Shown here piece after piece: positions 1,652 through 45,172 of a stretch of 56,635 bases of DNA; position 1 is the stretch's first letter; each line of letters opens with the position of its first letter. The stretch lies in the NCBI RefSeq assembly GCF_024639605.1, contig NZ_JAHEHZ010000003.1:1-56635 (forward strand), written 5' to 3'. The stretch is from Roseobacter sp. (GTDB taxonomy: Bacteria > Pseudomonadota > Alphaproteobacteria > Rhodobacterales > Rhodobacteraceae). The position numbers and the translations under genes were made by a program. A model generated the notes under the pieces. That model saw nothing but the letters and a program-made list of their open reading frames with translations, did not search any database and was not told the origin of the DNA.

Positions 1652-2801
1652 GGATTGGCAGGAGGGCGGGTTCGGGCTCTATATCCACTGGCCTTTCTGC
1701 GAGGCAAAGTGTCCCTATTGCGACTTTAACAGTCACGTATCACGCTCCATCAACCAGGCGGCCTGGGCTGCGGCGTATCTGTCGGAACTGCGCCGCGCAG
1801 CTTCTGAAACTCCGGGCCGGGTGCTGAACGCGGTATTCTTCGGCGGCGGCACTCCCAGCCTGATGGACCCCGACACCGTTGCCGCGATCATCGCCGAAAT
1901 CCGAAGGTTGTGGCCTGTGGCAAACGATCCGGAGATCACGCTGGAAGCAAACCCCGGTTCTGTGGAGGCCGGGCGCTTCCGGGCCTATCGCGATGGAGGC
2001 GTGAACCGTATCTCGATGGGTATTCAGGCGCTCAATGATGATGATCTGCGCCGGCTGGGCCGTATCCACACCGCGCAGGAAGCCATGGCCGCATTCGATA
2101 TCGCGCGGGACACTTTCGCCCGGGTCAGTTTTGACCTGATTTATGCCCGCCAGGGACAATCCCTTGCAGACTGGGATGCGGAACTGCGCTCTGCCCTGTC
2201 GATGGCCGTAGACCACCTGTCGCTTTATCAGCTGACCATCGAACAGGGCACCGCTTTCGGCGACCGCTACAACGCCGGCAAATTGCGCGGCCTTCCCGAC
2301 GATGATCTGAGCGTGGATCTCTATGCTCTGACCCGCGACATTTGCGGCGCGGAGGGCATGCCCGCGTATGAAGTTTCCAATCATGCCCGGGACGGGGCGC
2401 AGTCCCGGCACAACCTGATCTACTGGCGATACGGTGATTACATCGGGATCGGTCCGGGCGCACACGGGCGGCTCACATCAGACGGGGCACGATACGCTAC
2501 TGAATGTTTCTCTAACCCAACGCGATGGCTTGCCGCTGTCGACACCAACTCCGCTGAAAAACCCCGCCAGCTTCTGACGCGGGCAGACGAGGCCAGTGAA
2601 TTTCTGCTGATGGGATTGCGTCTGAAGGAGGGCGTCAGCCTCTCCCGCTATGAAAAGCTCAGCGGCAGACCGCTTGATCCCGGCCGCATTGAGCATCTTC
2701 GCGATATCGGTATGGTCGATGCGACTAAAGACAGAATTACTGTTTCAGAACAAGGGTTTATGGTTCTTAATGCAGTGCTTGCCGACCTTCTGAGCGTTTA
2801 A
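1632..2801 (+). CDS. hemW: Radical SAM heme chaperone HemW (coproporphyrinogen dehydrogenase-like)
   Basis: 389 residues. The motif CEAKCPYCDF near the N-terminus is the CxxxCxxC radical-SAM 4Fe-4S site of the HemN/HemW family, followed by FFGGGTPSLM and NPGSVEAGRF. HemW-type proteins bind heme and deliver it to respiratory enzymes; true HemN catalyses anaerobic coproporphyrinogen oxidation. The short N-terminus without the extension typical of HemN favours HemW. No ATG exists before the motif: the start is TTG 1632 (GGAA five bases upstream) or TTG 1644. The TAA stop overlaps the parB stop on the opposite strand. Confidence 0.9.
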   Translation: MPAALAEDWQEGGFGLYIHWPFCEAKCPYCDFNSHVSRSINQAAWAAAYLSELRRAASETPGRVLNAVFFGGGTPSLMDPDTVAAIIAEIRRLWPVANDPEITLEANPGSVEAGRFRAYRDGGVNRISMGIQALNDDDLRRLGRIHTAQEAMAAFDIARDTFARVSFDLIYARQGQSLADWDAELRSALSMAVDHLSLYQLTIEQGTAFGDRYNAGKLRGLPDDDLSVDLYALTRDICGAEGMPAYEVSNHARDGAQSRHNLIYWRYGDYIGIGPGAHGRLTSDGARYATECFSNPTRWLAAVDTNSAEKPRQLLTRADEASEFLLMGLRLKEGVSLSRYEKLSGRPLDPGRIEHLRDIGMVDATKDRITVSEQGFMVLNAVLADLLSV

Positions 2802-3688
2802 CTCCCGCTCAGAATACGGCAAAGCTCGTCCAGCTCTTCCAGCGATGAATAGTGCAGCGTGATATGCCCTTTTTCGCCGCCAGGCTTATGGGAGAGCTCG
2901 ACCTTCATCCCAAGGGTCGCGGAAAGATCCCCTTCAAGCGCTTTGGTATCGGCATCCTTTGCAGGCGCCGCAGCTTTCTCAGGCCTCGTGGCGCCGTCCC
3001 CCGCCTGAACCTTTTTCACAAGCGCTTCTGTCGCGCGCACGGACAGCCCGCCTTTGACGATCTGCTTTGCGAGGGCCAGCGGATCATCGGACCCGATCAG
3101 CGCGCGCGCATGACCGGCGCTCAGCGTATCACCGCGGACCATGTCCAGAACAGGTTCAGGTAGATTCAGCAAGCGCAACAGGTTGGCAATATGGCTGCGG
3201 CTCTTGCCAAGGGCCTCGGCCATCTTTTCCTGAGTGTGGCCAAACTCATCCATCAGGCGCCGGTAGCCAGCAGCCTCTTCCACCGCATTCAGATCGGCCC
3301 GCTGGATATTTTCGATAATCGCCACTTCGAGCACTTCGACATCGGAAAACTGCCGCACGATGACCGGCAACTCATGCAGCTTTGCCATCTGCGCCGCGCG
3401 CCAGCGCCGCTCTCCTGCAACAATCTCATAGCGTCCGCTTGCCAGGGCCCGCACGATCAGGGGCTGAATGATTCCCTTCTCTTTGATCGAGGCCGCAAGA
3501 TCATCAAGATCACCGTCCGCAAAGCGTTTGCGCGGCTGGTCCGGATTCGGGGATATCTGTTCAATAGGGATTTTCCGCTCGGCAGCTGCGGGGCCTGCAG
3601 CAGCACGCTCCCCGGTGTCCGCCACATCCGACATCAGGGCAGACAGCCCCCGTCCCAAACCACGCTTGCGCTCTGTTCCACCCGACAT
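2798..3688 (-). CDS. parB: Chromosome partitioning protein ParB
   Basis: 296 residues. ParB loads at parS, spreads as a CTP-dependent clamp and works with ParA to segregate origins. Visible parts: N-terminal GRGLSALM peptide (ParA-interacting), IPIEQISPNPDQPRKRF, IVAGERRWRAAQMA (the GERRxRA CTP-binding box), a helix-turn-helix around KMAEALGKSRSHIANLLRLL, and a C-terminal dimerization region. I chose ATG 3688 because GAGGGAG sits six bases upstream; a GTG at 3703 would overlap the parA stop by GTGA and is possible. Its likely targets, two parS sites, are 1.4 and 3.3 kb away. Confidence 0.97.
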   Translation of the reverse strand: MSGGTERKRGLGRGLSALMSDVADTGERAAAGPAAAERKIPIEQISPNPDQPRKRFADGDLDDLAASIKEKGIIQPLIVRALASGRYEIVAGERRWRAAQMAKLHELPVIVRQFSDVEVLEVAIIENIQRADLNAVEEAAGYRRLMDEFGHTQEKMAEALGKSRSHIANLLRLLNLPEPVLDMVRGDTLSAGHARALIGSDDPLALAKQIVKGGLSVRATEALVKKVQAGDGATRPEKAAAPAKDADTKALEGDLSATLGMKVELSHKPGGEKGHITLHYSSLEELDELCRILSGS

Positions 3689-3699
3689 GTCCCGCTCCC

Positions 3700-4509
3700 T
3701 CACGCCACTTTGGCTTTATTTTTATGCATAATTTCCTGCGCCAGCGCGCGATAGGCCTGCGCGCCTTTCGACGCTGTGTCATAAGTCAGCACCGGCATGG
3801 CATAAGACGGCGCTTCACTGACACGCACGTTGCGGGGAATGCGCGTTTCAAACACCAGTTCCCCCAGATTGTCCCGTGCATCCTGCTCCACCAGCGTCGA
3901 CAGGTTGTTGCGCTGATCGAACATTGTCAGCAGCACGCCCTCAATGCGCAGGTTCTTGTTCCCGGTCTGACGCACTTCGCGAATCGTCAGCATGAGCTGA
4001 GACAGACCTTCCAGCGCGAAAAACTCACTTTGCAGCGGCACCAGAACGGAATGCGCCGCAATCATCGCATTCACCGTCAGCAGGTTCAGCGACGGCGGGC
4101 AATCGATCAGGATATAGTCGAGGTTGAAATCGTCCATCCGCGTCTGACGCAGCGCGTCATGCAGAAGAAAACTACGCTTTTCGTTGGACATCAGTTCCAG
4201 ATCGGCAGAACTCAGATCGACCGTTGCCGGCACGATCATCAGATTTGGCGTAACCGTCGGCAGAATAACCGAGCCCAGATCGATGTCTTCAAGCAAAAGC
4301 TCATAGGTGGTGAATTCACGGTTCTCCATCTCGATCCCGAGACCGGTGGACGCATTTCCCTGCGGATCCAGATCAATCACCAGTACCCGTGCGCCGGATT
4401 CGGCGAGTGCTGCGGCAAGATTGATGGTGGTCGTCGTCTTGCCGACGCCCCCTTTCTGATTCGCAACTGCAATAATTTTTGGGCCTTGAGGACGCGACAG
4501 GTCAGACAC
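3700..4509 (-). CDS. parA: Chromosome partitioning ATPase ParA (Soj)
   Basis: 269 residues. Deviant Walker [14 protein letters not shown] near the N-terminus, [13 protein letters not shown] (A' motif) and [18 protein letters not shown] (Walker B) identify the chromosomal ParA/Soj ATPase, which binds nucleoid DNA and relays ParB-parS complexes. It starts at GTG 4509, overlapping the rsmG stop by eight bases, and its stop is 11 bases before the parB ATG. The rsmG-parA-parB order next to mnmG is the classic origin-proximal set. Confidence 0.97.
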
Positions 4510-5116
4510 GCTTGATTTCCTTTATCTCAAGAACGGCAGCAGCGGGGTTCGTTTTACTTTTATGCGATGTGACGGAAAATGACCAGGTTTCCTGTGCTCT
4601 GGCGAGCTCTTTTTCCCATGTTTCGCCTTTGAAAAAGACGGCGCGACCCTCAGGGTTGAGATGACGCTCAGCATACCCGATAAGCTCCGTCAGATCAGCC
4701 AGCGCCCGGGCAGAAATCACATCGGCTCCCACGGGCTCAGTGGTCTCAACCCGGGACACCTTAACGGATGCGTTCAGGTCAAGCTCTCTTATGGCAGTTC
4801 TCAGAAACGCCGCCTTACGCTGATCGCTTTCGATCATGATGACCCGGCCGCCAGGGTTTTGCCGCTGCGCAAGGATCGCAATGATAATAGCGGGAAATCC
4901 GCCCCCGCTTCCGATATCCAGCCAGGTATTCCAATCTTCGACAATCGGATACGCCTGCGCAGAATCCCATATATGGCGGCTCCAAAGCTCTGGGATACTT
5001 GATTTAGATATCAGGTTTATTCGCGGGTTCCATTTGAGCACCAGATCGTGAAAGACACAAAGCCGCTCAGATGTTTCACGTGAAACATTGATATCCATCG
5101 GCGCCTGTGAACTCAT
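4502..5116 (-). CDS. rsmG: 16S rRNA (guanine-N7)-methyltransferase RsmG (GidB)
   Basis: 204 residues. RsmG methylates G527 of 16S rRNA using S-adenosylmethionine. The SAM site is visible as [16 protein letters not shown], preceded by [16 protein letters not shown] and [11 protein letters not shown], followed by [12 protein letters not shown] and [10 protein letters not shown]. The ATG at 5116 overlaps the mnmG stop (ATGA). The first codons contain a complete parS palindrome (5072-5087), so residues NVSRET are dictated partly by that site. Confidence 0.97.
5072..5087. promoter_or_regulatory. parS site 1 (ParB binding), inside rsmG
   Basis: Perfect 16-bp palindrome TGTTTCACGTGAAACA, identical to the canonical bacterial parS consensus. 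It lies within the 5' coding part of rsmG, about 1.4 kb upstream of parB and about 5 kb from the proposed oriC. Confidence 0.93.
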
Positions 5117-9723: not shown

Positions 9724-10173
9724 TCAGAACCGGACCACCACCGACAGAACAATCAGGACCATCAGCACTGTGGGCACCTCATTCATCATCCGGTACTGCC
9801 GGCCGGTCAGAGTATTTTCACCAGCGATAAACTCTTTGCGCCGCAACCCCAGCCAGTGATGAAACCATGTCATGGCCAGCACACCGCCAGCCTTTGTCCA
9901 GGGCCAGACCTGATCCCAGCTCACAATGCCCGGGGTAAAGACCAGACACAGCCCGAAGATCCAGGTGGCAATCATCGCCGGGTTCATGATCGCGCGCAGC
10001 AGGCGCCGTTCCATGTCCTGAAACATCTGATGGGTATCGCCCGTCGTGCCCACCTGTTCGGTATGATAAACAAAAAGGCGTGGCAGATAGAAAAGCCCGG
10101 CCATCCAGGCAATCACCGACATAATGTGAAAGGCCTTGATCCAGGGATAGGCGTTTAAGAGCAGATCAGTCAT
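9724..10173 (-). CDS. hemJ: Protoporphyrinogen IX oxidase HemJ (UPF0093 membrane protein)
   Basis: 149 residues with about four hydrophobic helices. HemJ oxidises protoporphyrinogen IX to protoporphyrin IX in the inner membrane. Visible signatures: YPWIKAFHIMSVIAWMAGLFYLPRLFVYH (conserved His in helix 1), MERRLLRAIMNPAM, and a late FHHWLGLRR segment. ATG 10173 is the first Met giving the family N-terminus. It borders the proposed oriC, which fits the common placement of heme genes next to alphaproteobacterial origins. Confidence 0.94.
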   Translation of the reverse strand: MTDLLLNAYPWIKAFHIMSVIAWMAGLFYLPRLFVYHTEQVGTTGDTHQMFQDMERRLLRAIMNPAMIATWIFGLCLVFTPGIVSWDQVWPWTKAGGVLAMTWFHHWLGLRRKEFIAGENTLTGRQYRMMNEVPTVLMVLIVLSVVVRF

Positions 10174-10256
10174 TCCGGGCCCCCGTCGGTCCAACCCTCT
10201 TAATAATTAATAAAGAAAGAGAAAAGGATGATGATGTAGGTAGGGTTGCCGATTTC

Positions 10257-10265
10257 TGTGGATTA
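10257..10265 (-). promoter_or_regulatory. DnaA box, one mismatch
   Basis: Minus-strand reading TAATCCACA, one base from the consensus TTATCCACA. It sits beside the left AT-rich tract of the proposed oriC. Confidence 0.55.
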
Positions 10266-10350
10266 ACGATTTACCAGGGGTTTTTCCCACAGGGGGACAA
10301 GATCAGCGTTTAAAATTAACAGTATGGTAATGAAATAAATAACGATTTAA

Positions 10351-10363
10351 AATCAAGTAATTA
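10351..10363 (+). promoter_or_regulatory. IHF-type binding site in oriC
   Basis: AATCAAGTAATTA fits the consensus WATCAANNNNTTR at every defined position. It lies in the AT-rich tract about 35 bases left of the first strong DnaA box, where a DNA bend could help origin opening. Such a short consensus can occur by chance in AT-rich DNA. Confidence 0.5.
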
Positions 10364-10397
10364 AATGGTCCTATTACTCCGGGAAACTGTACGACTC

Positions 10398-10406
10398 TGT
10401 GTATAA
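10398..10406 (-). promoter_or_regulatory. DnaA box
   Basis: Minus-strand reading TTATACACA matches TTATNCACA exactly. It directly abuts a GACTC (GANTC) site at 10393-10397, a possible CcrM methylation target. Confidence 0.75.
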
Positions 10407-10422
10407 ACCGGTGGAAGACACA

Positions 10423-10431
10423 TTATGCACA
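10423..10431 (+). promoter_or_regulatory. DnaA box
   Basis: TTATGCACA matches TTATNCACA exactly. It faces the box at 10398-10406 with a 16-base spacer; a degenerate TTATCCTTA follows at 10441-10449. Confidence 0.75.
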
Positions 10432-10568
10432 CCGACTGGTTTATCCTTACCCTTACGGGGGTGAAATGCGCCGGACCCCGTGAGACAAGCGCGCCGCCCG
10501 GGACTTGCGCCGGGCCGGCATTTTGCCCAGAAGAAATGCAGCAACAATCCAGCGTCCCGCACACAGGC

Positions 10569-10577
10569 TTATTCACA
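10569..10577 (+). promoter_or_regulatory. DnaA box overlapping the maf start codon
   Basis: TTATTCACA matches TTATNCACA exactly; its last base is the A of the maf ATG at 10577. Part of the proposed oriC, and positioned where bound DnaA could also affect maf expression. Confidence 0.65.
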
Positions 10578-11176
10578 TGCCAACGCCCCTGATCCTTGCC
10601 TCCGGATCCGAGATTCGCGCCCGGCTTCTGCAGCAGGCTGCCGTTGCATTCACGGTCGTCCCGGCCCGGGTCGATGAAGAGATGGTGCGTGCGGCCCTAC
10701 TGGCAGAAAACGCGCCGCCCCGGGATATTGCTGATACACTCGCGGAGCTCAAAGCCCGCAAGATCAGTGAAAAGTACCCCGGTGCGTTGGTAATCGGCTG
10801 TGATCAGGTGCTTGATCATAAGGGGACGCTGATGTCCAAGCCCGCGACGCCCGAAGATGCTGTTGATCAGTTGCACGCGTTGCGCGGAGGCCGGCATCAG
10901 CTTTTGTCGGCGGCGGTGGTCTGTGAAAACGGAGAGGCGATCTGGCGACACGTGGGTCAGGTCAGGCTGTATATGCGCGCTGCGACCGATGCTTATATCG
11001 CGGGATATGTCGCGCGGAACTGGGACAGCATCCGCCATTCCGTCGGCGCCTATAAACTCGAAGAAGAAGGCGTGCGGCTTTTTCACCGGGTCGAGGGCGA
11101 CTATTTCAATGTGCTGGGCCTGCCTTTGCTGGAGCTTCTGTCCTGGCTCACTTTGCGGGGGGATCTCGAACAATGA
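10577..11176 (+). CDS. maf: Maf/YceF-type nucleoside triphosphate pyrophosphatase
   Basis: 199 residues. Maf proteins hydrolyse modified or non-canonical NTPs (dTTP/UTP or m7GTP types). Seen: [16 protein letters not shown] at the N-terminus (the usual ASxSPxR loop, here with Glu in place of Pro), [16 protein letters not shown] and the later [18 protein letters not shown]. The start is ATG 10577; a reading from 10505 would extend into oriC. Ends with an ATGA overlap into aroE. The substrate class cannot be decided from sequence alone. Confidence 0.93.
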
Positions 11177-29496: not shown

Positions 29497-29966
29497 GCGG
29501 CCCAGGCCCTGAGACGGTCGTCCCATTTCGGATCCTGCCAGCGGGCAGTCAGGTGCCGCTCATCCTCGCCGGTCGCTGAGCGCAGTTCGATCTCAAGCGC
29601 GTCCTCCGGGCGCAGATCGCCCAGCCTGTCGGGCCATTCCACAAGGCAGACCGCCTCCGAGAACGCCTCCACCAGACCAAGCTCTTCAATTTCGGAAACG
29701 GAGCCGATCCGGTAAAGATCACTGTGCCAGAGTGTCCCGCGCGAGGTCTCATAGGTCTGAACGAGGGTGAATGTCGGCGATGGGATATCTTCAGGCACCT
29801 CCTGCACCGACCGGATCAGCGCGCGGGCGAAATGGGTTTTTCCCGCGCCGACACCGCCCGAGAGCAGCACCACATCCGCAGGTTTCAGCCGCTCTCCAAG
29901 CGCCGCGGCCCGCTCAGCGGTTTCATCGGGGGTGAGCAGATCAAGGTGGAGCGTCCGGGCAGTCAT
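29493..29966 (-). CDS. tsaE: tRNA t6A37 biosynthesis ATPase TsaE
   Basis: 157 residues. Walker A LSGGVGAGKTHFARAL, then DIPSPTFTLVQTYE and LWHSDLYRIGSVSEIEELGL, and a later VEWPDRLGDLRP, are TsaE hallmarks. TsaE drives the TsaB/TsaD complex that makes threonylcarbamoyl-A37 in ANN-decoding tRNAs. The tsaD partner is also in this window (41748-42845). First gene of the tight tsaE-amgK-murU-addBA block. Confidence 0.95.
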   Translation of the reverse strand: MTARTLHLDLLTPDETAERAAALGERLKPADVVLLSGGVGAGKTHFARALIRSVQEVPEDIPSPTFTLVQTYETSRGTLWHSDLYRIGSVSEIEELGLVEAFSEAVCLVEWPDRLGDLRPEDALEIELRSATGEDERHLTARWQDPKWDDRLRAWAA

Positions 29967-40788: not shown

Positions 40789-41751
40789 TTATTCTTCCTT
40801 CAGTGAGCGCGACAAGAGGCGTCGCATGGCCTGGGGTACATCCAAACGGTTTTCGACAAGCGCTGCAACCACCGCCGTGATGGGCATATCGTCCCCTGCA
40901 GCGCGCGCGGCTGCGTCCATCGCCCGGGCGGTTGCGGCCCCTTCGACGGTCACGGCAGGGTCAAATCCGGTCCCCTGCCCCAGCGACAACCCCAGGCGGT
41001 AATTGCGCGACTGTTCCGAGGTGCAGGTCAGCACCAGATCTCCGAATCCCGAGAGCCCGCTGAGCGTTGCGGGGTCCGCACCCCGCCGGGCCGCGAGCCG
41101 CGTCATTTCGGCATTTCCGCGCGTCATCAGGGCCGCGCGGGCACTCTCACCAAGCCCGGCACCGATCGCCGCACCGCAGGCAATCGCCACGACGTTTTTC
41201 AGCGCCCCGCCCAGTGCTGCGCCGGTCACATCGGTGCTGCGATAAAGCCGCAGCGTGACCGACGACAACCGCTCCTGAAGCACCCCGCCAAGGGTTGAAT
41301 CCGCACAGGCCAGTGTCATCGCGGTCGGCAGACCGATGGCAATATCGCGGGCGAAAGCGGGGCCGGTCAGCAGCGCCAGAGGAGCTTCCGGCAGTACATC
41401 GGCGATGACATCCTGCGGCCCCTGCCCGGTATCAAGCTCGATCCCTTTGCAGCAGGCCACCAGCGTTCTGCCGGCAAGCTGCGCGCGATGATCCTGCAGA
41501 AATCCACGCAGCTTCTGCATCGGCACTGCCAGCAGGACGATCTCTGCCTCTGACAGTGCCTGAGCGTCAGATGAAACCCGGATGCTGTCGGGCAGACGCG
41601 CGCCGGGAAGACGCCGCGCATTTTCACGCGTCATGCTGAGTTTCTCTGCTTCGCCTGCGTCGCGCAGCCACAGGGTGACCGGGCCTGTGGCACTGATTGA
41701 AATGGCCAGCGCCGTGCCGAAAGCACCTGCACCTGCCACCGCGACCTTCAT
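40789..41751 (-). CDS. gpsA: NAD(P)H-dependent glycerol-3-phosphate dehydrogenase
   Basis: 320 residues. Makes sn-glycerol-3-phosphate for phospholipids. [18 protein letters not shown] is the dinucleotide fold; [66 protein letters not shown] (catalytic Lys in LKN) and [22 protein letters not shown] confirm it. Overlaps tsaD by ATGA. Confidence 0.97.
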
Positions 41752-42845
41752 GCCTTTGCCCCCTTTTTGCCGCTGCCCAGCATCGCGGGGCTTGTCTGGT
41801 CCAGCGGCCAGCGGGGACGCGCAGCCAGGGTCATGCCCGACGGCCCGGAAAGTGCCATCTGTTCCAGAGCAGCATACCCGATCATCGCCGCATTATCGGT
41901 GCAAAGTGCCAGCGGAGGCGCGATGAAACGCGCGCCAAACTCTTTTGAAACAGTCTCTAATGAAAACCGGATCATCATATTTGCCGCGACACCGCCGGCG
42001 ACGCAGATTACCGGCGTCTGATCCGCAACCTGCGGGTATGCGGCCATGGCCCGACGCGTTTTTTCGGCAAAAACATCCGCAACTGCGGCCTGAAACCCGG
42101 CACAAAGATCGTGTCGGTCCTGTTCTGTCAGCCCGCCCTGGTCTGCTATCAGCGCGTCCCGGGTCCGTAAAACGGCGGTCTTCAGCCCGGAGAAGGACAT
42201 ATCGCACCCTGGCCTGTCGAGCAGCGGCCTCGGAAAGGCAAAGCGTGCCGGATCACCTTCTTTTGCGGCGGCCTCGACCGCCGGTCCGCCCGGTTGCGGC
42301 AGCCCCAGAAGCCTCGCAATTTTGTCGAAAGCTTCGCCGGGTGCATCGTCGATCGTGCCGCCAAGTCGGGTGAAATCGTCCGGGCCGCGCACAAGCAGAA
42401 ACTGGCAGTGCCCGCCGGAGACAAGCAACATCAGCCACGGGTATGGCACGGCGTCGGTCAGACCGGGCGTCAGCGCGTGACCGGCGAGATGATTGATTCC
42501 GTAAAGCGGTTTGCCGGTGGCGGCCGCCAGCCCCTTGGCACACATCACACCGGACACCACGCCGCCGATAAGCCCCGGACCCGCAGTCACTGCAATTGCG
42601 TCGATGTCATCCAACCCGAGACCTGAGGCCTCCAGCGCCTGTTCCACGCAATGATCAAGCGTTTCAGCATGCGCGCGTGCAGCAATCTCAGGCACAACGC
42701 CCCCGAAACCGGCGTGCAGTTCCGCCTGCCCGTGCACCACGGAGGACAGGATCTCTGTCGCGCCACCGGCCGTCCGGCGCAGCACGGCAGCAGCCGTGTC
42801 ATCACAGCTGCTTTCCAGCGCCAGAACGGTACAGGGTGCGGCCAT
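41748..42845 (-). CDS. tsaD: tRNA t6A37 threonylcarbamoyltransferase TsaD
   Basis: 365 residues. [17 protein letters not shown] at the N-terminus, [27 protein letters not shown] (metal-binding HxxxH), [34 protein letters not shown] and [13 protein letters not shown] are all TsaD. Transfers threonylcarbamoyl to A37 with TsaB and TsaE. ATG 42845 is chosen; the reading to 42968 adds unrelated residues. Divergent from hemD. Confidence 0.97.
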
Positions 42846-42919
42846 CAGGGTGTTTCCGTTGCAAGATAAACGCCCTGCAGGTAACACCGGATGGCTGCGT
42901 AAACAATGCCGGGGGCGAG

Positions 42920-43615
42920 ATGGCAGATCAGAAATTGTCATTGCTGATGACACGTCCCGAGGGCTCAAACGCCGGTTTTGTCGGGATGCTGCCGCCCCGG
43001 GTCCGGTCTGCGGTAGAGGTTATTGAAAGCCCCCTGCTGAGTATCGAATCCCTCGGCGGTACGGCGGCACCGGGCCCGCAGGAAGAAGCGCTTTTTTCCT
43101 CGTCCAACGGTGTGCGGTTTGCCCCGCCGGGTGATGGACGCAGGGCCTGGTGTGTCGGCGCACGCACCACGGCCAGCGCACACGACGCGGGCTGGGAAGC
43201 CGTGCATGCGGGCGACACGGCAGCGGACCTGATCAGACGTATCCTCGCGGAACGCCCGGCGGCAGATCTCGTGCATCTGAGCGGCGCACACACGCGCGGC
43301 GCGATCTGTGAATCGTTGCAGGCTGCGGGGCTCCGGGCCCGGAGAATCGTTCTCTACGATCAGCAACTTCTGAGCCTCAGCCCGGCTGCCCGCGCGCTTT
43401 TTGACCAGCCCCGGCAGGTCATTGTGCCACTTTTTTCACCGCGTATCGCCGTCCGGTTTGTGGCGGAATGCCCGGCCCCCGAACAGGTGATCGCAGTCTT
43501 TCTGAGTGACGCTGTTGCAGCCGGTACGGGTCAGACAGCGTTTTTGCAGCGGATCACTGCCGGCACACCCGATGCGGTTTCCATGGCGGCAAGTATTGAA
43601 AAACTGTTTCGCTGA
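42920..43615 (+). CDS. hemD: Uroporphyrinogen-III synthase
   Basis: 231 residues. Cyclises hydroxymethylbilane to uroporphyrinogen III. The family is very divergent; seen are [50 protein letters not shown] and [16 protein letters not shown], which fit HemD. The start is ATG 42920. No hemC is adjacent. It precedes mic60 and hemY, the usual alphaproteobacterial neighbours. Confidence 0.85.
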
Positions 43616-43693
43616 GACAGCTTGGGTTGAGAGGAGTTCCGCCGCGGAGTAAGCTTTCAAAGCGACGCCGGCGGGCGGAGAATCGGATTAGGG

Positions 43694-45172
43694 GTGGATG
43701 TTTTGGCTAAATCGCGCAAATCGGGCAACAAGGAAGAAGACAAAGACCTGTCTGCAGAGACGCCGGAGACGCATGTCACCGATGAAGTATCAGGAAAAGA
43801 CACGCCCGTTATAAAGGCAGATGACACCGACGGGCACGAGCAGCAGGAAGTCTCTGCTGAGCAGTCGGATGCAGCGGATGAGCCAGTTACGGATCCTGAT
43901 GCGATCCTCGCGAAGACGCCTGAGAAAGCGCCCGAACCCGACCCTGAAAATCCCGATGCAGAGCCTGATTTTGTCCTGTTAGAGACAGATGAAACTGAAA
44001 AGAAATCATCCGGGAACCCCTGGTCTGCGGAGGCCGGAGAGGCAGACATTGCGGACACTCAGACCGCAGTAAACGACGCCGGTGAGACCTCTGACGCGGA
44101 TAAACCGGAAGAGGAACCGGCCCTGCCTGTGGTCACTCAGACGACGGTGCGCGAGGTGCACAAAGGCAGCATGTGGCCCGCTGTCTTTGGTGGCGTGATC
44201 GCTGCCCTGATTGGTTTTATCGCAGGCCGCGGCGATCAGCTTGACGCTTATCTTCCGGAATCGATGCAGAGAAGCAGCCTTGATGTTGCAGAGATCGAAT
44301 CGTGGACGGAGGAGCTGCGCTCTGAGTCCGCCGCTCTTTCCGCAAGGATTGAAGAACTGGAAAACGCCGAACCTGTTGTTGCTGATACATCTGAGGTCTC
44401 TGGCGCTGTCGGTGAACTTGCCATGTCAGTTGAAGCCCTTTCCGGGCGGATCACTGATCTGGAAAGCAGGCCGGTCGTCACGGATACCGGCGACAGCGGC
44501 GCCTCTGCCGAAGAGATTGCCGCCCTGCAGTCCGCCCTCGATGAACAGAGCAGGCGGCTCGATGAACAGAGCCAGCAGCTCGATGAACAGAGCCGGCAGA
44601 TTGCTGCAAAAAGCGAAGAGATCGCAAGCCTGCAGGCCGGGGCAGCCAACGCCGAAGCAGCCGCACGTTCAGAGGCTGAAAAGATCCTCGCGCGGGCGGC
44701 TTTGACACGGGTGGTTACGGCCGTCGAAAGCGGTGAGGCTTTTGAGCCGGCGCTGAGCGATCTTGAAGAGGTCGCACCTGTTGAGGTCCCTGAGGCGCTG
44801 CGCACTGCCGCATCTGCCGGTGTCCCCACCATCAGCGATCTGCGTGATAGTTTTCCGGGTGCCGCGCGCGCGGGTCTTGCCGCAGCGCGCAAGAATACAC
44901 CCGAAGCCGAAGTTCAGGGCGTTGGCGCGTTTTTGCGCCGTACGCTCGGTGCGCGGTCTGTGACGCCGCGGGATGGTGATGACCCTGATGCGATCCTGTC
45001 GCGCAGCGAAGCCGCTCTGAAACAGGGTGATATCGCGCTTGCGCTGAGCGAGATGGAGGCTCTTCCCGAACCTGCCAGAACCGCGATGCAGGACTGGATA
45101 GAATCTGCCGAGGCCCGTCAGGCCGCCCGTGACGCTGCAACCACGCTGTCTGACAGCCTGCAAAGTAACTAA
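43694..45172 (+). CDS. Mitofilin-family inner membrane protein Mic60
   Basis: 492 residues. Very acidic N-terminal 150 residues, one membrane helix (about 161-178, WPAVFGGVIAALIGFIAG), a coiled coil (about 195-330) with three EQSRRLDEQS-type repeats, and a C-terminal mitofilin part (ARAALTRVVTAVESGEAFEPAL... VPTISDLRDSFPGAARAGLAAA). Alphaproteobacterial Mic60 shapes inner membranes and is the ancestor of the mitochondrial crista protein. It starts at GTG 43694. Pairs with hemD and hemY as is usual. Confidence 0.9.
   Translation: MDVLAKSRKSGNKEEDKDLSAETPETHVTDEVSGKDTPVIKADDTDGHEQQEVSAEQSDAADEPVTDPDAILAKTPEKAPEPDPENPDAEPDFVLLETDETEKKSSGNPWSAEAGEADIADTQTAVNDAGETSDADKPEEEPALPVVTQTTVREVHKGSMWPAVFGGVIAALIGFIAGRGDQLDAYLPESMQRSSLDVAEIESWTEELRSESAALSARIEELENAEPVVADTSEVSGAVGELAMSVEALSGRITDLESRPVVTDTGDSGASAEEIAALQSALDEQSRRLDEQSQQLDEQSRQIAAKSEEIASLQAGAANAEAAARSEAEKILARAALTRVVTAVESGEAFEPALSDLEEVAPVEVPEALRTAASAGVPTISDLRDSFPGAARAGLAAARKNTPEAEVQGVGAFLRRTLGARSVTPRDGDDPDAILSRSEAALKQGDIALALSEMEALPEPARTAMQDWIESAEARQAARDAATTLSDSLQSN
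44538..44600 (+). repeat. Three tandem 21-bp repeats inside mic60
   Basis: Units at 44538-44558, 44559-44579 and 44580-44600, each starting CTCGATGAACAGAGC. They encode LDEQSRR/LDEQSQQ/LDEQSRQ heptads of the coiled coil. In-frame duplication, so copy number may vary between strains. Confidence 0.85.

Follow-up and report, generated by a model that had tools for sequence, protein, structure and literature searches.

A conserved BUS-like cassette with a fixed register in the probable chromosome origin between hemJ and maf of a Roseobacter sp.

The adjacency of oriC and maf is conserved in the Rhodobacteraceae according to the available part of PMC4793288, and the available part of PMC6699656 reports oriC predictions for 101 Rhodobacteraceae based on DnaA boxes, skew and parAB. 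The location of the origin studied here is, as far as these partial sources go, already known and not new. Another of the closest known systems is the basal unwinding system (BUS). The available part of PMC8287927 describes it as beginning with one or more DnaA boxes, which are followed by a GC step of ~4 bp, then by 3'-GAT-5' trios and finally by AT-rich DNA. The search rule given there calls for three or more NAN trios no farther than 16 bp from a box; the spacer length peaks at 10–13 bp, and tandem boxes occur in 57% of BUS. The same order, with the 3'-GAT-5' trio appearing as 5'-CTA-3' on the other strand, is given in the accessible part of PMC8235120; further sources on the BUS of Bacillus subtilis and others, likewise accessible in part, are PMC6669920 and PMC10721633.

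The window, i.e., the whole stretch of 56,635 nucleotides that was analysed, is contig C161 of a draft genome of 3.67 Mb in 260 contigs. The divergent genes hemJ and maf, starting at 10173 (minus strand) and 10577 (plus strand), leave a gap of 403 bp between them. The genes rho, mnmE, mnmG/gidA, gidB, parA and parB lie to the left of the gap and aroE, coaE, a dnaQ-type exonuclease gene and secB to the right, and the sole Bac_DnaA_C match of the genome is on a different contig, C242. For the comparison with relatives, a Maf search of named genomes was used; it confirmed 123 relatives, of which the best 80 were taken. A divergent hemJ match was present beside maf in 77 of these 80, with a gap of 358–455 bp. 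No hemJ match was seen in L003, L029 and L063, and the contig of L003 begins 248 bp before maf. Together with the window, the 77 made a set of 78 gaps, reduced to 67 (the window among them) once near-duplicates were removed. The features of the window are as follows.

2798–3703, minus strand: parB (PF02195, PF17762)
3700–4509, minus strand: parA (PF13614, PF01656)
5072–5087, no strand given: parS, exact 16-mer, one of the only two in the genome
6968–6983, no strand given: parS, exact 16-mer, the other of the two
9724–10173, minus strand: hemJ, left neighbour (TIGR00701)
10174–10576, no strand given: oriC candidate, the hemJ/maf gap, called from box counts, layout in relatives, parS and literature
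10200–10226, no strand given: AT tract on the hemJ side, where melting is proposed to begin; includes 10200–10225, the least stable 26-mer of the window
10227–10235, plus strand: GATGATGAT block, trio-like, conserved in the gaps
10241–10243, plus strand: TAG, a single 3'-GAT-5' trio; 13 bases separate it from the box
10244–10247, plus strand: GGTT, the 4-bp step from TAG to the near box register
10248–10256, minus strand: near box register of 9 bp, worn away in the window
10257–10265, minus strand: DnaA box TAATCCACA with one mismatch (TGTGGATTA on the plus strand), present in 18/18 aligned close gaps
10308–10380, no strand given: second AT-rich, low-stability tract, least stable at 10328–10353
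10351–10363, plus strand: IHF-like site AATCAAGTAATTA
10398–10406, minus strand: DnaA box TTATACACA, exact
10423–10431, plus strand: DnaA box TTATGCACA, exact
10441–10449, plus strand: possible weak box TTATCCTTA
10569–10577, plus strand: DnaA box TTATTCACA, exact, overlapping the A of the maf ATG
10577–11176, plus strand: maf, right neighbour (PF02545)

The original prediction read this gap as oriC and listed three exact DnaA boxes, a near-match at 10257–10265, an IHF-type site at 10351–10363 and GACTC at 10393–10397; all of these were found in place. The oriC reading itself gained support from the box cluster, the low-stability tracts, the conserved IHF-like site, parAB and parS, the layout shared by 77 of 80 relatives and the available part of PMC4793288. 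The gap resembles the maf-adjacent Rhodobacteraceae origins predicted with Ori-Finder/DoriC in its maf-side position, DnaA boxes, low GC and nearby parAB, and we conclude that it is almost certainly the chromosome oriC.

The three exact TTATNCACA boxes compare with 0.42 expected in the window, at least three being reached in 2 of 100 shuffles, and a search of the whole window found no exact copy outside the gap. The whole draft genome has 55 exact boxes, 3 of them inside the gap, and the listing of these 55 contains no second group of three within 180 bp. In the 67 non-redundant homologous gaps, we counted 60 exact DnaA boxes (shuffled mean 1.2), which are spread over 40 gaps and leave 27 without any; their density is 2.2 per kb in the gaps versus 0.010 per kb in the remainder of the same loci. 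The box at the maf start is kept in 44 of the 67 gaps, always at exactly -8 and with no more than one mismatch (22 exact; shuffled 0). The opposed pair at 10398 and 10423, to which the original prediction had attached weight, is indeed a pair of exact sites, but it is only partly conserved: boxes with at most one mismatch were seen near the same places in 47 and 15 of the 67 gaps, respectively, versus 3 and 0 at control positions. In the same-genus genome G271, the cassette described below and the -8 box are retained and each member of the opposed pair carries a mismatch (by eye). A motif related to TTATCCTTA, T[TG][AG]T[CT]CTT, occurs at -150 to -110 in 27 of the 67 gaps (shuffled 1.2), and TTATCCTTA and its kin may perhaps be a conserved weak DnaA box.

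On the hemJ side of the gap, the elements follow in the order AT tract, GATGATGAT, TAG, 4 bp, 9 bp and TGTGGATTA. The one-mismatch box noted earlier as a near-match is thus present, but it is more than that, being part of a conserved unwinding-type cassette. To the left of TGTGGATTA, nearly all of the 18 aligned close gaps read GATGATGAT...GTAGGG. The exact words are rarer over the 78 gaps (GATGATGAT in 40/78, and TGTGGATTA or TGTGGATAA in 44/78). The cassette was scored as the ordered series GATGATG, GTAGG and TGTGGATTA/TAA, each element being allowed a single mismatch. By this score the cassette was found in 61 of the 67 gaps and was missing from 6; it occurred in none of 40 shuffled sets and in 1 of 15284 control tiles from the same loci, the tiles being non-overlapping, so that a cassette spanning a tile edge would escape. 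Among close relatives, the 10257 box is better conserved than the exact opposed pair.

The spacing inside the cassette is nearly fixed. With 1–15 bases allowed, the distance from TAG to the box was 13 bases in 40 of the 61 cassette gaps, 14 in 7, 4 in 12 and 3 in 2 (the near register, at 3–4 bases, thus accounting for 14/61), which indicates that the box occupies one of two registers, 9–10 bp apart. These distances agree with the 9-bp box, the GC step of ~4 bp and the spacer peak of 10–13 bp in the described BUS. Both registers are filled by abutting boxes in the family genomes G117, G230, G261, G264 and G265, where a DnaA box stands in the register that is worn away in the window. GATGATG begins 12 bases before GTAGG in 43 of the 61 gaps and 13 bases before it in 14.

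When read on the minus strand, the window shows TAATCCACA, a 9-bp slot, AACC, CTA, CCTACATCATCATCC and the AT tract. This is like the BUS in its box-first order, in the 13-base spacer or the box plus 4-bp step, in a first trio that is 3'-GAT-5' and in the AT-rich DNA; the tandem box registers in relatives of the window are a further likeness. The box TAATCCACA, whose one mismatch is inside the two that a BUS box may have, points at the trios, the spacer of 13 is within the limit of 16, and the AT-rich DNA is at 10200–10225. The cassette differs from the BUS in that the repeat following its first trio is shifted from the phase by one or two bases, and for this reason the strict BUS rule fails in the window. 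No box there has three or more 3'-NAN-5' trios in phase within 16 bp, and 18 of the 67 gaps contain such a run (shuffled 5.6). Judged by its sequence, the cassette appears BUS-like and is not a proven member of that group.

The exact cassette pattern was found in 40 of 295 family genomes, at one place in each (with nested double counts in three), and a reversed control pattern had no match in these 40. One of the 40 matches, in G283, has a shorter spacer and may be due to chance. A looser pattern matched 102 of the 295 genomes, in many cases apparently by chance within genes. In a class-wide draw of 289 genomes, the exact pattern occurred in 2 of the 4 inside the family and in 0 of the 285 outside it. 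Other alphaproteobacterial families were also approached via Maf: 115 class genomes were searched, 102 matched and 30 loci were read. Two of these loci, those of the window's own genome and G215, both of the family, show the cassette. In the other 28, a looser expression produced nothing beyond loose hits that seemed unrelated (L160, L172, L174), and a cassette beyond the family was rejected for these loci, which extend ~1.5 kb past maf, so that an origin farther away would escape. The available parts of PMC4793288 and PMC6699656 contain no mention of the cassette and its register. A thin literature search found no earlier description, and we do not claim the cassette as undescribed.

Cori of Caulobacter crescentus offers a second comparison within the Alphaproteobacteria. 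There, too, the second base of the box is changed, from T to G in the Cori G-boxes (available part of PMC4468827) and from T to A here. The gap of the window contains no one-mismatch box of the Cori G-box form TGATCCACA and no TTAA-N7-TTAA. CtrA-type sites, another likeness to Cori, are seen in some relatives: exact TTAA-N7-TTAA lies at -36/-37, beside a DnaA box, in 10 of the 67 gaps (L001, L006, L010, L012, L015, L017, L021, L023, L027 and L037). The motif was also noticed by eye in L146 of genome G014; the equivalent place in the window, ~10540–10554, is without it. CtrA is encoded in the genome of the window (L203 protein, NF045991, 430 bits versus a cut-off of 350). The neighbour of Cori is hemE.

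The single IHF-like match in the window is not beyond chance (0.84 expected; at least one in 57 of 100 shuffles), and it gains weight only because its position is conserved in relatives. A site at -270 to -180 was present with at most one mismatch in 48 of the 67 gaps and exactly in 14, compared with 18.3 and 1.1 after shuffling, and the plus-strand positions cluster at -223 to -231. Meanwhile, the proposal that GACTC, a GANTC site abutting a DnaA box, is an origin element did not hold. The site, near -184, is unconserved and common to only one further gap of the 67, and GANTC as such is depleted, with a count of 166 in the 67 gaps versus 226 after shuffling (both strands, each site counted twice). 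Across the window, GANTC occurs 59 times versus 254 expected, about a quarter of its number in shuffled sequence, which would fit a CcrM-type methylation system.

From the computed sites, their conservation and their fixed spacing, we infer the following course of binding, filament direction, melting, helicase loading and segregation. DnaA would bind the boxes at 10398, 10423 and 10569, and an IHF-type protein would bend the AT tract at 10351; this assembly would help to load DnaA on the box at 10257–10265. A DnaA filament would then extend leftwards from that box, cross the 13 bases of the spacer, continue along TAG and GATGATGAT on the plus strand and melt the adjoining AT tract at 10200–10226, where the helicase would be loaded. 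ParB bound at the two parS sites would then segregate the new origins. The whole account, with the gap as oriC, DnaA loaded at the 10257 box and melting on the cassette side, has in our estimate a probability of about 70%. Provided that the gap is oriC, it probably melts at the hemJ-side cassette and not in the middle AT tract.

The other place at which the gap could melt is this middle tract, 10308–10380, in an E. coli-like, IHF-aided manner, with the cassette serving as an accessory DnaA site or a regulator of the neighbouring genes. We regard this as unlikely, albeit worth serious thought. Among the 50-mers of the gap, stability is lowest in the middle tract, which also exceeds the hemJ-end tract in AT richness over 50–100 bp; no 100-bp stretch of the window has more AT than 10308–10407 (28% GC). 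The middle tract also holds the position-conserved IHF-like site, and the failure of the strict trio rule at the cassette speaks for it as well. Both tract positions are AT-rich on average across the 67 gaps. The two least stable 26-mers of the window both fall inside the gap. However, the least stable of them adjoins the cassette, and the cassette has a fixed spacing register. In the 18 close gaps, moreover, the sequence of the middle tract is poorly conserved, whereas that of the cassette is well conserved. A different role for the same elements, with the origin elsewhere, would be that of a DnaA-regulated divergent promoter for hemJ and maf, which we consider very improbable. DnaA is known elsewhere as a transcription factor, the cassette lies 50–90 bp before hemJ, one box overlaps the maf start, and L029, which has no hemJ match, shows no clear cassette. 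Against this, genome G014 (L146), which has rho and maf matches and in which hemJ was not found, carries an intact cassette 356 bp before maf with rho as the left neighbour. L063, in which hemJ likewise has no match and rho is the left neighbour, keeps most of the cassette at 332–310 bp before maf: an AT tract is followed by GATGATGATGATG and by the box GGTGGATAA, which has one mismatch (by eye). The cassette thus seems to track the origin and not hemJ, by two cases versus one, and parS adjoins it.

The remaining alternative, that the true origin lies elsewhere, e.g., near a skew minimum at 42.8 kb, and that the gap only titrates DnaA, we find hardly credible. The skew check suggested in the original prediction gave a divided answer on the contig: there is a slope break at 10667, but the minimum is at 42822, outside 10.2–10.6 kb. 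In G014, too, the minimum (2.75 Mb) is 162 kb away from the cassette (2.913 Mb). On the other side, a minus-strand gene run from 16.7 to 43 kb can lower the skew, all exact DnaA boxes of the window are inside the gap, and parAB and the genome's only two exact parS sites are beside it. These parS sites, searched for with the parS 16-mer, are ~1.9 kb apart and both within 5.2 kb of the gap. In 5 of 5 genomes (this one and four relatives picked for a cassette on a long contig), there are only two exact parS sites each, all 2.8–5.2 kb from the cassette. In G002 the skew minimum (370–375 kb) coincides with the gap (367 kb). An origin at 42.8 kb was rejected as a candidate, there being no exact DnaA box at that place; third-position skew, computed to take out gene-strand bias, decides neither way. 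Pooled by segment, it is about -0.14 to -0.15 to the left of the gap and +0.02 to +0.04 to the right; per gene, it is negative in 10/10 on the left and positive in 16/29 on the right, with the minimum after the gene ending at 29526 and no clean V.

The skew of the four sampled relatives is mixed: one gives a clear minimum, two depend on whether the trend is removed, and one is 162 kb off. For these long contigs, 20–22 stretches of 12 kb each were sampled, so the minima are estimates. In G001, where the skew is weak and noisy, the minimum is at 1.03 Mb raw or 1.195 Mb detrended versus a gap at 1.047 Mb, and in G008 it is at 3.49 Mb raw or 3.31 Mb detrended versus a cassette at 3.478 Mb. Among the 78 loci, 70 had 5 kb on both sides, and every one of these 70 has more G on its right flank than on its left (skew negative on the left in 70 and positive on the right in 67), a direction in which gene divergence biases the skew alike. 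The 42822 minimum of the window contig, within 41748–43694, is near the start of tsaD, where the long run of minus-strand genes ends and plus-strand genes begin.

What is added here to the known maf-side origin is the cassette with its fixed register; the origin is otherwise normal and well supported. The cassette confines the probable melting point to ~65 bp and permits a direct test of how strictly DnaA needs in-phase trios in alphaproteobacteria. We tentatively suggest, at somewhat less than even odds, that Rhodobacteraceae origins use a family-specific DnaA-trio unwinding element. In it, a single 3'-GAT-5' trio would stand exactly in the BUS register and, after a shift of one or two bases, the GATGATG block would follow; a second box register would be occupied in some genera and eroded in others. 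If this is true, the in-phase rule for calling a BUS would be too strict, and draft genomes could be searched for these origins with the cassette as a sequence tag; in its exact form, it pointed to just one place in each of the 40 matched genomes.

Two minor observations were made at other loci. Apart from the gap, exact boxes form a close pair at a single place of the genome, 418–462 of L081 on contig C64, where two TTATCCACA boxes are separated by 36 bp; ~550 bp after them comes an open frame that, by eye, resembles DksA/TraR. This pair was rejected as a competing origin, as by eye the 260 bp read there showed no cassette and no likeness to box pairs in G001 and G003. Finally, a contig titled as a 'Nitrospira sp.' metagenome-assembled genome (L045, JAAUPT010000331.1) contains a Rhodobacteraceae-type hemJ-cassette-maf locus with a 70% identical maf and is probably a stray contig in that bin.
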